DNA of 62,280 bases, taken from the IMG/VR virus record IMGVR_UViG_3300046507_000576, positions 1 to 62,280 of that record. One strand, 5' to 3'. A program made the translations under genes and the position numbers. The stretch is from a virus. Position 1 is the first letter of the stretch; each line of letters opens with the position of its first letter. Of this stretch, positions 6,414 to 62,280 are shown one piece after another. The notes under the pieces were generated by a model. The model did not search any database. It was not told the DNA's origin and saw only the letters and a program-made list of their open reading frames with translations.

Positions 6414-6833
6414 ATGAGCGACAAGAATCTCCCCCACCAGCGTGACGTCATCGTCGTCGCCCTGGAGCAAGCCCTGGCCGACCACGCCGGCAACCCCCTG
6501 AAGACCACGATCCAGCTGATGAGTGACCTCGTCGAGGCGTACTCCAGCCGCGAGCTGGTCATCGTCTCCGACCGCGTCGAGTCCCTGCGCGAGGGCGTCG
6601 TGGTGTGGCTCAACACCCACGTGGACTACTACCACGAGGTCGTCATGCGCCCCATGACCATGCACACCTCGGCCGCAACCCTCATGAAGGCCCGCATCGA
6701 GTCCGCCGGCGCTCCTGGCAGCCGCATGCCCCTGCCCAGCCGCGTGCTCTGCGCCTTCGACAGTCGCCCCGAGATGCGCACCGTGTGGGCCGACTACGGC
6801 GTCCCCTGCTACCTGACCCCGGGGGTCAAATGA
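6414..6833 (+). CDS. Hypothetical protein
   Basis: 139 aa, mostly helical, charged and without Cys-rich motifs. An AGGAAG precedes the ATG; an upstream in-frame ATG at 6381 lies inside the hairpin-adjacent C-rich run and lacks a ribosome site. Ends in ATGATG overlap with the next gene. Confidence 0.5.
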   Translation: MSDKNLPHQRDVIVVALEQALADHAGNPLKTTIQLMSDLVEAYSSRELVIVSDRVESLREGVVVWLNTHVDYYHEVVMRPMTMHTSAATLMKARIESAGAPGSRMPLPSRVLCAFDSRPEMRTVWADYGVPCYLTPGVK

Positions 6834-9206: not shown

Positions 9207-9509
9207 ACGACGGCGTACGGCCCTCCGGGGCCACGGCATCATCTACCCATGCCTCGAAACACACTACCCCGGGTGTGTTAGACTTGGGTGGGACTAACCG
9301 GCCGAAGGTTATGAATCCCTAGCAGTGGTATCTAGCCGGGCTAGAACACAAGTATAGTCGAAGGCCACATGACTGTATTCGGGAGCGCTCCCGTGTACAT
9401 GACTGGAGAGATGCCCGATCCCTTGGCCTCAGGGAGAAGGACGGAAGGCGGACCCGGTATCGAACTGCTGTGGTAAGCAGGAGCAACGCCCTTAGAAATA
9501 GCCCTTCAG

Positions 9510-9538
9510 AGCCCGCCGCAAGCGGGCTTTGTCGTTTC
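9510..9538 (+). terminator. Intrinsic terminator before the portal gene
   Basis: AGCCCGC pairs with GCGGGCT around CGCAA, followed by TTTGTCGTTTC. It would end transcripts from the terminase operon or release a short RNA from 9207-9530. Confidence 0.65.
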
Positions 9539-9553
9539 TGGACTCGGGGTGAT

Positions 9554-9585
9554 GGCTTACGCCGGTAGGGTCTGCGGTGCAGTAT
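9554..9585 (+). promoter_or_regulatory. Candidate promoter for the head operon
   Basis: GGCTTACGCC, 17 bases, AGTAT: same spacing as the promoters at 17916 and 21724. It lies directly after the terminator and 34 bases before the portal start. Confidence 0.45.
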
Positions 9586-9618
9586 CGGGCGATCAAACCA
9601 ACGCCCAGGGAGAGCCCC

Positions 9619-11097
9619 GTGACCACCAAGAAAGAAGCCGACGTATCAACCCCCTCGACTGCCCACGAGGCGATGGCGCCGTACTGGGCGATGGCCGAGA
9701 CCCTGCTGGGTGGCACGCGTGCCCTCCGCGGCAAGGGCCAGGACTACTTGCCCCAGCACGAGCAGGAGAGCGATAAGAACTACCGTAACCGCCTCGCCCG
9801 TGCGACCCTCCTCAACATGTTCGAGTCCACCCTCGACACCCTGTCTGGCAAGCCCTTTGAGGATGCAATTACCATCAACGAGGACGTGCCCCCAGAGATT
9901 TCTGAGCTGATCCTGCCAGACGTTGACCTGCAGGGCACGGCAATCCAGCCGTTCTGCCAGGAGTGGTTTCGCATGGCCTGGGCCAAGGGCCAGGCGCACG
10001 TCCTGGTGGACCAGGGCGTGGCCGAGAAGAAGTTCGACGGCTCCGGCAGGGAGCGCCCACGTACCCTCGAGGATGACCGCGCAGACGGCCTGCGCCCCTA
10101 CTGGGTCCTCATCCGTCCTGAGAATCTGCTGGCCGCCTTCGAGCGCGTGGAAAACGGGCACCGCTATCTCACCCACGTGCGGATTCTGGAGAAGACCGTC
10201 GAGCAGCAGGGCTTCGAGGAGGTCGAGGTCAACAAGATCCGCGTCCTCGAGCCGGGGATCTGGCAGCTGTGGAAGATGAGCGACGATGGCAAGAAGTGGG
10301 TGATCGAAGACCAGGGGACGACTGGCCTCGGCCGCATCACCCTCACCACCTTCTACGCAGGCAAGCGTGAGGGGCTCATGTTGTGCAAGCCGCCTCTTGA
10401 AGACCTGGCCCACCTGAACATTACCCACTGGCAGTCAAGCGCAGACCAGCGCAATGTTCTCACCGTCGCGCGCTTCCCAATTTTGGCAGGCAAGGGGGTC
10501 GATGCGGACTCCAAGGTTACGATCGGCCCGAACAACTACCTCACCACCACCGAGGGTGGTGAGTGGTACTATGTCGAACACACGGGTGCCGCGATCGAGG
10601 CGGGCCGCAAGGACCTGGAGTCCCTCGAGAACCAGATGGCCTCGTACGGCGCCGAGTTCCTGCGGCAGAAGAGCGGCGACGAGACGGCAACGGCCAGGGC
10701 TCTCGACTCGGCGGAGACCAACTCCTACCTCAACATGACTGCGCAGCGTTTCCAGGACTGCATCGCCCAGGTGCTGCAGGACACTGCCGACTGGATGGCT
10801 CTGGCAGAAGGCGGCACCGTCAAGCTTGCCGACTTTGACGACGAGCCAGCTGGCGCAGATGCCCCGTCCCTGACCGCCCTGAAGGACGCCCGTGCCTCCC
10901 GCGACCTGTCGCGTGAGAATTACCTGATCGAGCTCAAGCGCCGCGGCGTCCTGAACGAGGACTTCGACCCCGAAGACAACCAGGAGCAGCTGGACCAGGA
11001 GGTGCCGTCCGACGGCCTTGGCGGCATGTTTGGCGATGGCAAGACCGACCCCACGGGCAAGGGTGATCCAAAGCAGCCCGCGGGCGGAGCTGAGTAA
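9619..11097 (+). CDS. Portal protein (DUF4055 type)
   Basis: 492 aa from GTG with GGGAGAG upstream. An in-frame ATG at 9577 is possible but lies within the promoter region and has no ribosome site. The N-terminal DYLPQHEQESDKNYRNRLAR and LSGKPF patterns are those of DUF4055 phage proteins, which occupy the portal position next to terL. Portals form a dodecameric ring at the capsid vertex through which DNA is packaged and tail proteins attach. The acidic, Gly-rich tail (last 50 residues) is common. The start of the head gene shares the TAATG junction. Confidence 0.85.
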   Translation: MTTKKEADVSTPSTAHEAMAPYWAMAETLLGGTRALRGKGQDYLPQHEQESDKNYRNRLARATLLNMFESTLDTLSGKPFEDAITINEDVPPEISELILPDVDLQGTAIQPFCQEWFRMAWAKGQAHVLVDQGVAEKKFDGSGRERPRTLEDDRADGLRPYWVLIRPENLLAAFERVENGHRYLTHVRILEKTVEQQGFEEVEVNKIRVLEPGIWQLWKMSDDGKKWVIEDQGTTGLGRITLTTFYAGKREGLMLCKPPLEDLAHLNITHWQSSADQRNVLTVARFPILAGKGVDADSKVTIGPNNYLTTTEGGEWYYVEHTGAAIEAGRKDLESLENQMASYGAEFLRQKSGDETATARALDSAETNSYLNMTAQRFQDCIAQVLQDTADWMALAEGGTVKLADFDDEPAGADAPSLTALKDARASRDLSRENYLIELKRRGVLNEDFDPEDNQEQLDQEVPSDGLGGMFGDGKTDPTGKGDPKQPAGGAE

Positions 11098-13682: not shown

Positions 13683-13715
13683 GTGTTTCTCCTTTATGGG
13701 GGCCCGTAAGGCCAT

Positions 13716-13792
13716 GCTCCAGTTGTTTGGTTTATGAGTTCATTATGCTGGGTATTTCTCCTCAAGGGAGCCCCAGTTCCTCTATTTTTCTC
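13716..13792 (-). repeat. 77-bp promoter/leader repeat, copy 1
   Basis: Matches 14006-14082 with only four differences. Contains the minus-strand promoter at 13741-13775 and the untranslated leader. The two copies drive the two genes of the insert. Confidence 0.85.
13741..13775 (-). promoter_or_regulatory. Minus-strand box promoter (NADAR gene)
   Basis: CATTAT on the plus strand (ATAATG on the minus strand) and GGGAGCCCC, separated by exactly 19 bases. Same layout as 14031, 40056, 40476, 53575 and 53745. Confidence 0.7.
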
Positions 13793-14000
13793 ACTTGCGA
13801 ATAATGTTAATCTCAACTTCGTCGGAGTTGCTGAACTCGTCAAAGGTGCGGAGCAGCCGAGCAGCGGTCCTGATCGGGCCGTTTGCCGCCCACCAAGCAT
13901 TGGCTTGAGCCCGTACAGGGGTCGTGATCTTACCAGCCTGAGCGCCCAGGGAGTAGCTGGTTTTCTCGGTGCGGAGGTTAGTGATCTCGATGATGTACAT
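13791..14000 (-). CDS. 69-aa hypothetical protein beside NADAR
   Basis: Starts MYIIEITNLRTEKTSYSLG; TGGAGC precedes the ATG at 14000, so an earlier in-frame ATG is less likely. Strand-rich start, then a helix RAQANAWWAANGPIRTAARLL and an acidic end. Unrecognised. It has its own copy of the promoter repeat used by the NADAR gene, which suggests a functional pair. Confidence 0.6.
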   Translation of the reverse strand: MYIIEITNLRTEKTSYSLGAQAGKITTPVRAQANAWWAANGPIRTAARLLRTFDEFSNSDEVEINIIRK

Positions 14001-14005
14001 GCTGT

Positions 14006-14082
14006 GCTCCAGTTGTTTGGTTGATGAGTTCATTATGCTGGGTATTTCTCTTCAAGGGAGCCCCAGTTCTTTTATTTTTCTC
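14006..14082 (-). repeat. 77-bp promoter/leader repeat, copy 2
   Basis: Second copy of the repeat at 13716-13792, upstream of the 69-aa gene. The repeat probably arose when one gene with its leader was copied or inserted by recombination. Confidence 0.85.
14031..14065 (-). promoter_or_regulatory. Minus-strand box promoter (69-aa gene)
   Basis: Plus-strand CATTAT, 19 bases, GGGAGCCCC. Identical in both elements to the copy at 13741. Confidence 0.7.
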
Positions 14083-40540: not shown

Positions 40541-40975
40541 CTACGGGTGCTTGGTGACCGCCTTCAAGACGTCCCATGCGCTGTGACTGGGCGGAAGGAC
40601 GGCCAGTGCCTCGAGCTCCTGCTCGGTCGGCGGGTTGGCCTCGAGCTCTCCAATGTACCGGCCCGGCACCAGGTACTTCTTTAGGGTCTTGCCGATGCCC
40701 ACCCTTACATATAACCAGTGGTTTCCATTTGCACGCATGCGCTTCCGGTGGTAGATGACCTGGGACTTGCGGATGCCCAGGTCGATCGCCGTGGCCGGGT
40801 GTGCCGGCCGGTCGGTTCCCTTGAGTTCGATCTCAAAGTACCAGCCCAGGTAGCAGCCGTCCACGTCCGGGTCGCCCGATCCCACCTGGTTCTCGAGGCG
40901 GCGGTAGTGAAGCTGGAGGCCGATAGGCTTCCAGCCCTCACGGAGGAACTCCCAAAGCCTGGACTCACGCGCCAT
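40541..40975 (-). CDS. PD-(D/E)XK nuclease-like protein
   Basis: 144 aa. VGSGDPDVDGCYLGWYFEIELKG supplies the G-PD...ExK core (Asp, Glu, Lys) and is followed by IRKSQVIYHRKRMRANGNHWLYVRVG, the Q-helix and strand of VRR-NUC/RecU-type folds. Probably cuts structured or damaged DNA, such as recombination junctions. Overlaps the DHFR-like gene end by 11 bases. Confidence 0.7.
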   Translation of the reverse strand: MARESRLWEFLREGWKPIGLQLHYRRLENQVGSGDPDVDGCYLGWYFEIELKGTDRPAHPATAIDLGIRKSQVIYHRKRMRANGNHWLYVRVGIGKTLKKYLVPGRYIGELEANPPTEQELEALAVLPPSHSAWDVLKAVTKHP

Positions 40976-41444
40976 GGTTCACCCCGCTGTACAAGTTAAC
41001 ATAGACTTCGCCCAACTTGATGCGGTGGTGGCAGTCACGATCAAGCTTGTTCAGCAGGGGCTCGACCGAGATGCCCCCACCAAGACGCGCTGTCGTCTGG
41101 CACAGCACGACCTGCTCCACCAGGTTGGCGTCGAGCGCGGCCAGCACGACGTCCAGCCCACCGATGAGCCACGCGTCTCGGTGCGCCCAGGCCGCCTCCT
41201 GGAGCGTGATGCCCTTGTGGTAGGTCCGGCTGATGGCGACCACCTCGCGGTCCGCCAGCTTCGGCAGCAGGTCCGCCGTGCGACGGCCTGCCAGCACCTT
41301 GTGCGAGCCACCCGTCAGGGTGAGCAGGCGAAAGATGCCCTTGTCCGTCTGCCCGGTCCACTCCATGCGGTCTTCCGGCCCGCGCGCGACGAAGCCGTCG
41401 CCCGACACCGCCATCAGCACCTTAAATCCCAGTCCCTTTGCCAT
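40965..41444 (-). CDS. Dihydrofolate-reductase-like protein
   Basis: 159 aa of DHFR/RibD-C fold: KVLMAVSGDGFVARG at the start, VLAGRRTADLLP, VVAISRTYHKGITLQEA and DAWLIGGLDVVLAAL, the GG-nucleotide-binding turn. Reduces folate if it is a true DHFR, which a reductive ThyA-type methylation needs. It sits two genes from the ThyA-family enzyme. A RibD-like reductase is the alternative. Confidence 0.7.
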   Translation of the reverse strand: MAKGLGFKVLMAVSGDGFVARGPEDRMEWTGQTDKGIFRLLTLTGGSHKVLAGRRTADLLPKLADREVVAISRTYHKGITLQEAAWAHRDAWLIGGLDVVLAALDANLVEQVVLCQTTARLGGGISVEPLLNKLDRDCHHRIKLGEVYVNLYSGVNHGA

Positions 41445-54610: not shown

Positions 54611-55099
54611 TTATGATGCCAGGGTCGGGGCCCCGGAGACACCGTCGACTCGGGGTGCCTCGTGCTTCAGTGGTGACTGCTTCGGCCAGTCGTAGTCGGC
54701 CAGTGTCGGGAACGTGATGGCCTCCAGGTCGTAGGCGCCTTGGACCAGCATCTCCTGGTGCTCCGGCATGTGCACGGCCGTCGCCCGGAGGACCCCAGCA
54801 AAGTTGGCAGCACGTGCCCACTTCGGCGTGGCCCTGTTCCCGTACGGCATGCGCAGCTCCAGGTCGAGCACGGTGTTCTGTAGCTCCCGGCTGTTAATCA
54901 GGTCTGTCATGACAAGGCCCAGGTCCCCGTAGACCCTGGTCATGTCGTCAGCGGCCTTGACGAAGGCCTGAGCCTTCTGCTGCCACTTAAACGGGAAGTT
55001 GCCAGCTGCCTTTTGGCAGTCCAGCACCATGTCTAGAAGCCCCTGCCGCACAACGGCCATCATGTCCCCCATGTACTGCTTGGAGATGACCGTCTTCAT
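54611..55099 (-). CDS. Hypothetical protein, helical
   Basis: 162 aa. The front is helical (MAVVRQGLLDMVLDCQKAAGNFPFKWQQKAQAFVKAADDMTRVYG); the back is less regular. Start overlaps the preceding stop (ATGA). Unrecognised; placed next to SSB, perhaps in replication. Confidence 0.5.
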   Translation of the reverse strand: MKTVISKQYMGDMMAVVRQGLLDMVLDCQKAAGNFPFKWQQKAQAFVKAADDMTRVYGDLGLVMTDLINSRELQNTVLDLELRMPYGNRATPKWARAANFAGVLRATAVHMPEHQEMLVQGAYDLEAITFPTLADYDWPKQSPLKHEAPRVDGVSGAPTLAS

Positions 55100-58099: not shown

Positions 58100-58759
58100 T
58101 TACTTCAGGTCGGCGAGGAAGGCGTCGTACTTGGACGGGTCCATGGCCGAGACGCTGACGGCCTCGTGCTTCTGCAGCAGGGCCATGGCGGCTTCATTGC
58201 CGTGGGCCTTGGCGTAGGCCTTCAGCTCGTTGCGCACGTCGTCCACGGTGACCTTCTTCTTGGCCTGGGCGGCGGCCTTGGAGGCCTGCTCGGCGGCGTC
58301 CAGGGTGGCCTGCGTCACGTGGGTCGTCTCGCTGTAGCCGGTTTTGGCCTGCGCCTCGGCGAGGGCGGCAGCGCGGTTGGCCTCGGCCTTGTTCATCGCG
58401 GCCTGCATGTCTGGCGGGTTGGCCTTGGTGGTCTGCTCGGCGGCTTGCGCAGCACCGTGCAAGCTAAGCCCTGCAATCGGCTCGGCTGTGCTGGTCTTGG
58501 CGGTCATCTCGGCGTGCTCCTTGGCTGCCGCGAGGCCGGCCGGGGTATTGCCGTCGCCTGCGGGGCGGATCTGCGTGGCCTCGACCGAGCCCGCGACCAG
58601 CTCGATCGACGAGGCCTCGCGCTGTGCCTTGACGTACTCCAGCATCTCCTGGTTAACGGCCAGGTTCTGCTCGGCAACGGCCAGCTGCCTGGTGGAGTTG
58701 TCCGCCTGGGTTTCGAGGGCAATGACGAGGCGCTCGACGAGCTTCATGATGAGTTCCAT
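58100..58759 (-). CDS. Helical, Ala-rich protein
   Basis: 219 aa, Ala/Lys/Glu-rich with a long coiled-coil N-terminus and a compact C-terminal module (KKKVTVDDVRNELKAYAKAHGNEAAMALLQKHEA...DPSKYDAFLADL) that recurs in phage replication regions. First gene of the leftward set. Start at 58759 or 58747 cannot be decided. Confidence 0.5.
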   Translation of the reverse strand: MELIMKLVERLVIALETQADNSTRQLAVAEQNLAVNQEMLEYVKAQREASSIELVAGSVEATQIRPAGDGNTPAGLAAAKEHAEMTAKTSTAEPIAGLSLHGAAQAAEQTTKANPPDMQAAMNKAEANRAAALAEAQAKTGYSETTHVTQATLDAAEQASKAAAQAKKKVTVDDVRNELKAYAKAHGNEAAMALLQKHEAVSVSAMDPSKYDAFLADLK

Positions 58760-62110: not shown

Positions 62111-62181
62111 AGAGGAAACTGGGACGACTCGGGCTACTCGAACGACTGGGACGGCGTGCCAATCCGGGGGATGGGCGGGGC
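62111..62181. other. GC-rich stretch leading to the circular junction
   Basis: No gene seen. After circular closure this continues through bases 21-202 as the leader of the first plus-strand operon. CTATGATCT at ~170-178 is a weak -10 candidate there. Confidence 0.35.
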
Positions 62182-62280
62182 GGGCGGACTGAGGGCGCCT
62201 GGCCGACTCCGGCTGGCCGAACGAGAGGGCCCCTCGGCTGATCGCGCAATTTTTCCCTGTCTGCTCGGCCCCGATGGCCT
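62182..62280. repeat. Terminal direct repeat, right copy (99 bp)
   Basis: Exact copy of bases 21-119. Joining the two copies gives a circle of about 62.16 kb in which the origin-like region at 61810-62110 runs directly into the first gene at 203. Confidence 0.9.

Follow-up and report, generated by a model that had tools for sequence, protein, structure and literature searches.

Between terL and the portal gene of a virus lie 412 bases (9207-9618) without a convincing gene, raising the question of what this gap holds. The virus is IMG/VR record IMGVR_UViG_3300046507_000576, and its 62,280 bases are the whole stretch of DNA analysed here, referred to as the window. An earlier note on this DNA had called the gap non-coding, which holds, and had interpreted it as a structured small RNA or a packaging signal (pac or cos), pointing to a row of hairpins, a palindrome between two repeats and a terminator.

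The TerL protein is 74-80% identical to those of named phages, several of which are filed under Bradleyvirinae (family Mesyanzhinovviridae). The last base of terL is 9206, and terS lies at 313-924, i.e. 8 kb from the gap. The portal gene (PHROG 145) most plausibly starts at the GTG at 9619, a start that was picked by its ribosome-binding site, the open frame itself opening upstream at 9577. Assemblies of circularly permuted genomes often carry end repeats, and the 115 nt repeated with 97% identity at the two ends of the record (5-119 and 62166-62280) make it probable that this is a circular or permuted genome that is nearly complete. The window also contains a 78-nt direct repeat (95% identical; 13715-13792 and 14005-14082) that is, by eye, A+T-richer than its surroundings and flanks a small gene called on the minus strand (13791-14000) between head genes; moreover, it codes for a dihydrofolate reductase (40965-41444), a cysteine-dioxygenase-like protein (2134-2676) and a kinase-like protein (6414-6833).

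Across the window, neither ARAGORN nor Rfam matched a tRNA or tmRNA, and Rfam 15 gave no match of any kind at the gathering threshold; at E<=10, the gap region gave just three hits, all far below gathering: lin-4, Trp_leader and CRISPR-DR28, the last of these on the stem of the terminator. The row of hairpins was rejected, as the folding of the gap is not better than that of its shuffles (z -1.03 on the plus strand and -0.28 on the minus strand), i.e. its folding energy is ordinary on both strands. The palindrome and the repeats do exist: ACATGACTG is present at 9367-9375 and 9397-9405, and the 14-nt palindrome CGGGAGCGCTCCCG at 9380-9393. The window, however, holds two further copies of ACATGACTG and 11 palindromes of 14 nt, and both features are near the chance level, since among 2000 mononucleotide shuffles 57 have a 14-nt palindrome and 122 a 9-mer that recurs within 40 nt. 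None of the seven relatives checked has the palindrome core or the repeat as an exact copy, and the combination of the two was rejected as a conserved element.

We collected the DNA downstream of terL in relatives from IMG/VR and among GenBank phages, in which a common layout was first seen by eye. A scripted search for hairpins with five pairs between CGA and (C/T)TAG(A/G)C gave 37 hits, 35 of which were at the expected place (counting the window twice, as W and L086, and including some near-identical pairs); the other two, L018 (minus strand) and L060, were taken as chance. L081 and L024, missed by the script because of a single differing base or mismatch, were included manually, and without near-duplicates the final set comprised 31 loci. 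When 30 of these, i.e. all except L005, were aligned with MAFFT irrespective of structure (alignment A1), RNAalifold, blind to the prior reading, returned the hairpin P3, the helix P2 and an outer helix, P1, that had not been seen before. In A1, 98.7% of the cells are paired in P1, 100% in P2 and 99.3% in P3. The whole structure including a pseudoknot had 91.7% paired cells compared to 29-47% when the 3' partners were slid by 1-3 columns, and 105 cells were changed on both sides compared to a shuffle mean of 30; the number of pair types was not above that of shuffles (reached by 106 of 500).

The pseudoknot joins the P3 loop to the bases just 3' of P1. In A1, 77% of its cells are paired, and it is blurred there by the differing loop lengths of 7-8 or 10. 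After right-justification by hand, 124 of 132 cells are paired, representing 22 haplotypes, compared to a maximum of 103 in 2000 shuffles, with the 3' strand having been placed by typed strings in 11 of the 29 rows and by a pattern naming its first three bases in 18. L005 and L023 were left out of this hand alignment of 29 rows because their 3' strands are unclear.

As the earlier note had proposed, we looked for covariation among the homologues, using our own R-scape-like script (not R-scape) with a null in which the substitutions on each branch of the TerL tree are replayed on random columns in 300 replicates. Covarying pairs were found. Thirteen of the 14 top-scoring among 2775 column pairs fall in P1, P2, P3 or the pseudoknot and five, at least one per helix, have E<0.05, counts that were taken after one block had been shifted; an earlier version of the hand alignment, with this block justified oppositely, had placed 11 of the 13 highest pairs there, and three pairs had E<0.05. 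Two pairs in P1 have E~0 and 0.03; the first pair of P2 is CG in 21 and TA in 8 rows with no mismatch (E~0.04), the second being an invariant CG; and P3 has changes on both sides in four of five pairs (P3.4, E~0). On the TerL tree, each varying pair changes its type 1-9 times in P1-P3 and 2-11 times in the pseudoknot, mismatches being counted as types. Read on the plus strand, the wobble cells of P1 and P3 are 14 G-U and one A-C and, thus, point to the plus strand as the RNA; in the pseudoknot the balance is reversed, with nine A-C/C-A and three G-U. Outside the base pairs, the positions identical in all 29 rows are a G and an A ahead of P3, a U and an A behind it, and the G of a GCA preceding the P1 3' strand. 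The invariant UA belongs to UUA at 9278-9280, which faces the internal loop between P2 and P3. The P4 arm pairs in the same way in L137 (by eye), and in the remaining loci its sequence and length vary.

Folding programs that do not draw pseudoknots recovered neither P1 nor the pseudoknot from the window sequence (z -0.43), and L030 folded worse than most of its shuffles (z +1.47); the case, therefore, rests on comparison. A covariance model (R1) hits the window, which is part of its training alignment, at 9236-9347 with 70.9 bits (E 3.6e-14), and the window has P1, P2, P3, the conserved bases and the pseudoknot CCCGG/CCGGG, which covaries in the 29 rows. Sequences outside the alignment that were found later (L137, L030 and A1432) keep the pairs, as judged by eye. 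L137, found by pattern, combines the loop GACAGG with the tail CCTGTC, a compensatory pair that is new relative to the alignment (76.5 bits). L030, the most distant member encountered (TerL 72%), was found by the covariance model with 52.3 bits and by eye has P1 ACGCT/AGCGT, pseudoknot AGGTGG/CCACCT and a longer P3. A1432 scores 90.1 bits, and L005, also outside the training alignment, 46.7 bits. In total, we conclude from this comparison that the predicted RNA fold, i.e. P1, P2, P3 and the pseudoknot, is kept by selection. The idea of a structured small RNA thus receives strong support from covariation in 29-30 homologues, with a fold that differs from the row of hairpins.

The RNA lies directly behind a promoter-like motif with the consensus GAYGGYRTNCG-N15-GGCATCATC. 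The spacing AYGG-22-GNATNAT, which ends in a GCATCAT-like heptamer, is identical in 31 of 31 loci, while the intervening 22 bases vary, and the -10-like box is 6 nt from the first base of P1 in 30 loci and 7 nt in one. The usual distance from promoter to start would put the start of transcription at P1. Pairing of GATGG...CATC as an RNA stem was considered and rejected because the spacer varies at a constant length of 22 in all 31 loci and the motif recurs before coding genes. With a position weight matrix (PWM) from 27 distinct sites, the window being excluded, the site at 9209 scores 26.0 and is the best in the window, compared to 15.2 for the best site in the control, one mononucleotide-shuffled window. 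The second copy before the portal gene is close to this shuffled maximum; by eye, it is in the same place in L001, L003, L005, L007 and L008. Several weaker sites are near or below chance level, and matrix hits of 12-19 also occur inside genes, e.g. at 54646 on the minus strand (18.7) and 29750 on the plus strand (12.2). A plain sigma-70 scan gave nothing at the promoter of the gap, and PHROG scans of 36 stretches of the window (75 genes called) named no RNA polymerase or sigma factor.

At the other end of the presumed transcript, the terminator proposed by the earlier note was borne out as a terminator-like hairpin: a GC-rich stem followed by a T-rich tail is present at 9507-9531, and homologous sequence follows the RNA in many relatives; the same scan of shuffles is expected to give 0.7 terminators per 1.2 kb. 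A small hairpin further upstream has 88% identity over 25 nt with L019 and L020 among the loci compared, and its exact pattern was only found in the contigs of these two loci among viral contigs. Altogether, these observations support a promoter-like motif of constant geometry and a terminator-like hairpin on either side of the RNA, and a putative RNA gene that is split from the portal operon by this hairpin and the second copy of the motif (Table 1).

Table 1. Features of the terL-portal gap and promoter-motif sites in the window (window coordinates)
Feature	Position	Strand	Basis or remark
Predicted promoter: box GACGGCGTACG 9209-9219, 15-nt spacer, -10-like GGCATCATC 9235-9243	9209-9243	+	Fixed spacing, PWM
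Pseudoknotted RNA core domain, ~92 nt; predicted transcript start ~9249	9249-9340	+	Model R1
P1 5' strand AUGCC, pairs with 9327-9331 GGUAU	9249-9253	+	5/5 pairs with double changes (MAFFT alignment)
P2 5' strand UC, pairs with 9281-9282 GA	9254-9255	+	UC/GA in some phages, CC/GG in others
Internal loop P2/P3, GAAA here, GA invariant	9256-9259	+	Invariant columns
P3 hairpin: stem 9260-9264/9273-9277, loop 9265-9272 UACCCCGG	9260-9277	+	99.3% of cells paired
Pseudoknot 5' strand CCCGG in P3 loop, pairs with 9336-9340	9268-9272	+	Covariation
P4 variable arm: GGGA/UCCC 9290-9293/9316-9319, AACC/GGUU 9296-9299/9307-9310	9290-9319	+	Weakly supported
P1 3' strand GGUAU	9327-9331	+	Partner of 9249-9253
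Pseudoknot 3' strand CCGGG	9336-9340	+	Covariation
Remaining 3' part of the presumed transcript, poorly conserved, with palindrome and repeats	9341-9506	+	Palindrome core and repeat absent in 7 relatives checked
Small hairpin CUGCU-GUGGUA-AGCAG (9465-9480) inside GGCG/CGCC	9447-9490	+	Resembles L019/L020 only
Predicted intrinsic terminator: stem 9507-9531, then T-rich tail TCGTTTCTGG	9507-9541	+	10 pairs
Second copy of promoter motif before portal and head genes, GATGGCTTACG ... TGCAGTATC	9551-9586	+	PWM 15.6
Portal RBS AGGGAG 9607-9612 and GTG start 9619	9607-9621	+	Open reading frame, RBS position
Promoter-motif site	58828	-	PWM 23.6; ~70 bases before called start of minus-strand gene 58100-58759
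Promoter-motif site before RBS and ATG	39221	-	PWM 16.7
Promoter-motif site before RBS and ATG	5783	+	PWM 14.7
Promoter-motif site before RBS and ATG	15541	+	PWM 11.3
Promoter-motif site before RBS and ATG	4120	+	PWM 8.5

The covariance model matches 18 of 25 phage records, most of which are in the training alignment; 17 are matched once, and the second hit in G012 (E 0.02) was taken as chance. The carriers include the Bradleyvirinae phages DLP4, A1432 and Donnerlittchen, and also PaMx74. No match was obtained in the remaining seven records, i.e. PaMx28, phiH2, ZQG1 and the records of L014, L029, L007 and L017, the last two of which are short (8.9 and 32.7 kb). Thus, the RNA seems dispensable. 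A TerL search of genome contigs gave 22 loci, all with at most 62% identity, and three pattern scans of viral contigs (5, 5 and 2 stretches) only led to contigs of the same clade, one of them, L137, being new. Bacterial genomes contained a homologue in 0 of 4, 0 of 399 and 0 of 369 cases, a weak test because, in the rows listed, 150 (first set) or at most nine (the other two sets) of the first-look candidates per genome were scored. With the terms searched, titles and abstract beginnings of open PMC papers contained no description of this RNA. The A1432 paper mentions a description of the family as devoid of tRNAs (PMC11236537), and the sections consulted of the DLP4 and AXL1 papers report no such RNA (PMC6469090, PMC9206674). 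We conclude that Bradleyvirinae-like phages have here a family of structured RNAs which Rfam 15 does not contain.

In about half of the relatives, the RNA serves as the 5' domain of a longer stretch in which tRNAs are also found: ARAGORN found tRNA genes behind it in 16 of the 31 loci, in 13 of them including a tRNA-Met, and L027 and L092 additionally have a permuted tmRNA there. The other 15 loci are the window, L001, L002, L003, L005, L006, L008, L019, L022, L023, L024, L082, L083, L096 and L098. The gene in L008 consists, by eye, of promoter, RNA and terminator only, and the RNA thus needs no cargo. In L030, a tRNA-Pro lies in front of the promoter of the RNA. Rfam scans of 16 and a further three related loci gave only tRNA and permuted tmRNA at gathering, and further repeated non-coding modules are found behind the RNA in various sets.

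Several elements of these cassettes were recorded in their own right. The permuted tmRNAs (RF04321) at 7076-7324 of L027 and 3862-4156 of L092 score 112 and 109 bits; L092 is Stenotrophomonas phage QDWS359, the record of which lists only two tRNAs in the cassette. A second non-coding module that is conserved, GGCCACTAGCCCAGGTCCGTGAAGCC...GAGTGGCC, is present in L001 (6602-6700), L002 (6584-6681), L093 (1750-1844) and L137 (about 926-1028) and, relative to L001, is 92% identical in L002 and 87% in L093 in different contexts; the scanned pieces of L002 and L093 gave no Rfam match for it. In fourteen loci, e.g. L092 3369-3404 and L094 3376-3412, there is a strong hairpin whose loop is GGAGGTCCACCC and whose end is similar to CACCA(A); it resembles a tRNA acceptor minihelix and directly precedes a tRNA in several loci. 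Downstream in the cassette, a further conserved module of non-coding sequence, with TGTTCACAGGAGTGCACGCCTGAGC closed by GGGAGCTCC-like arms is found in L094 (3520-3650), L085, L092, L096, L097 and L098. Finally, between cassette and portal, DLP4 (L140 6872-8556) encodes a DNA ligase and a polynucleotide kinase-phosphatase domain (PF25109); a connection to RNA repair is no more than an idea because the domains of the ligase are those of DNA ligases.

The best explanation for the gap, to which we assign a probability of roughly 0.6, is that it is a stand-alone phage small-RNA gene with its own promoter, a pseudoknotted RNA and a terminator. Its promoter would start a transcript opening with the ~92-nt RNA, a three-way junction closed by the pseudoknot; the intrinsic terminator would end this transcript, and the second promoter would then start the portal operon. 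If transcription starts at the first paired base, the 5' end of the RNA would be tied up in P1 and, therefore, protected. With less certainty, the folded RNA itself may be the working product, a stable small RNA in which the internal loop with its invariant GA/UA and the GCA bases would be positioned as a binding surface for a host or phage protein. Its molecular function would be that of a trans-acting RNA, of the leader of a non-coding-RNA transcript or of an antiterminator similar to put. The odds of these readings overlap because they share the same anatomy, and we rank the stand-alone small RNA first, a leader acting in cis second and put-like antitermination third.

Because tRNAs follow in 16 loci, the RNA may be a leader rather than a product. 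It is a genuine possibility, if the less likely one, that the pseudoknotted domain stabilises the tRNAs, tmRNA and other RNAs behind it or guides their processing, the cargo having mostly been lost in the window. The place of the RNA directly behind its promoter in 31 of 31 loci, and its constancy while the cargo varies, agree with this. Phage tRNA and tmRNA clusters, including those with the permuted tmRNA, are among the closest known systems: many relatives carry the RNA at the head of the cluster, although it is itself neither tRNA nor tmRNA by ARAGORN and Rfam. The 15 loci without an ARAGORN tRNA, L008 with only its terminator, and L030 with its tRNA ahead of the promoter argue against a leader. 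We consider it decidedly unlikely that the nascent RNA binds its own polymerase and carries it through terminators into later genes, as putRNA of phage HK022 does through the beta' zinc-binding domain. Like putRNA, the RNA here would be a phage RNA folded at the very start of its transcript, with a promoter right upstream and terminators beyond it, and the geometry with a compact RNA at a fixed distance from the promoter is that of HK022 putL, which lies just downstream of PL with the third base as its first paired base, according to an excerpt of PMC9378689. However, put consists in the same excerpt of two adjacent stem-loops within ~70 nt, which the RNA described here does not form, being a nested junction with a loop-to-tail pseudoknot (PMC9378689). 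The portal gene has its own promoter-like motif behind the terminator, and only one of the motif sites in the window carries a clear copy of the RNA.

A ligand-sensing riboswitch or a self-cleaving ribozyme would fit the compact pseudoknotted fold and the grouping of a few invariant unpaired bases around a single internal loop. Nevertheless, it is quite improbable given that Rfam 15 had no match at gathering and at E=10 only the three far below it, and that in the window the terminator lies ~170 nt off, with no pairing to the pseudoknot that could be seen by eye. Several riboswitch classes were considered, all of them within the scope of the Rfam scan that gave no match, and no core matching a hammerhead was seen by eye; hammerheads of other phages and an inactive example from a Xanthomonas phage are described in a part of PMC3088659. 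The position between terL and portal speaks for a pac or cos site or a packaging RNA similar to phi29 pRNA, which is also a phage RNA with a three-way junction, according to an abstract on it. The parts of the gap that are conserved, however, are RNA helices, promoter and terminator; the pRNA differs in that here the loop pairs within the molecule, the RNA is not in all relatives and Rfam has no match. The phi29 pRNA is needed by the motor and is, thus, kept in the phages using it. By contrast, no hit for the RNA was obtained in PaMx28, phiH2 and ZQG1 despite TerL identities of 77-79%, and in A1432 a 2-kb tail-fibre gene separates it from terL. The family is thought to package headfuls, as stated in a section of PMC11946847. 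In general, a pac site is usually near terS, which is 8 kb off in the window. Since a terminase can be retained without the RNA, which can also be 2 kb away from terL and is far from terS, a role in packaging is extremely improbable.

Viral xrRNAs also have a junction that a hairpin loop closes by pairing with bases immediately 3' of the outer helix. Compared by fold only, the RNA described here is similar in its loop-to-tail pseudoknot, and differs in the arm that bears the loop and in the conserved bases, as well as in having no Rfam match. Altogether, we conclude that the gene in the gap is real and that the reasons first given for it were partly wrong; the earlier note did not include the conserved promoter-like motif, the RNA with its pseudoknot (9249-9340) or the promoter-like motif that recurs before the portal gene.

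Phage genomes are annotated mostly for proteins and tRNAs. In the cultured phages DLP4, A1432, PaMx74 and Donnerlittchen, the gap holds a structured RNA that is supported by covariation and has no entry in Rfam. A tentative and, on balance, unlikely extension is that the RNA represents a new fold class, in which a 5'-terminal pseudoknotted junction, whose transcription a phage-specific promoter would start exactly at the first paired base, would bind the host RNA polymerase or an RNA-processing or defence nuclease, and would thereby be a protein-free antiterminator or a shield of the phage RNA arsenal, i.e. the tRNAs, the permuted tmRNA and the further unnamed RNAs between terL and portal. With the consensus, the covariance model and the promoter motif in hand, the expression and the structure of this RNA as well as the effect of its deletion are directly testable.
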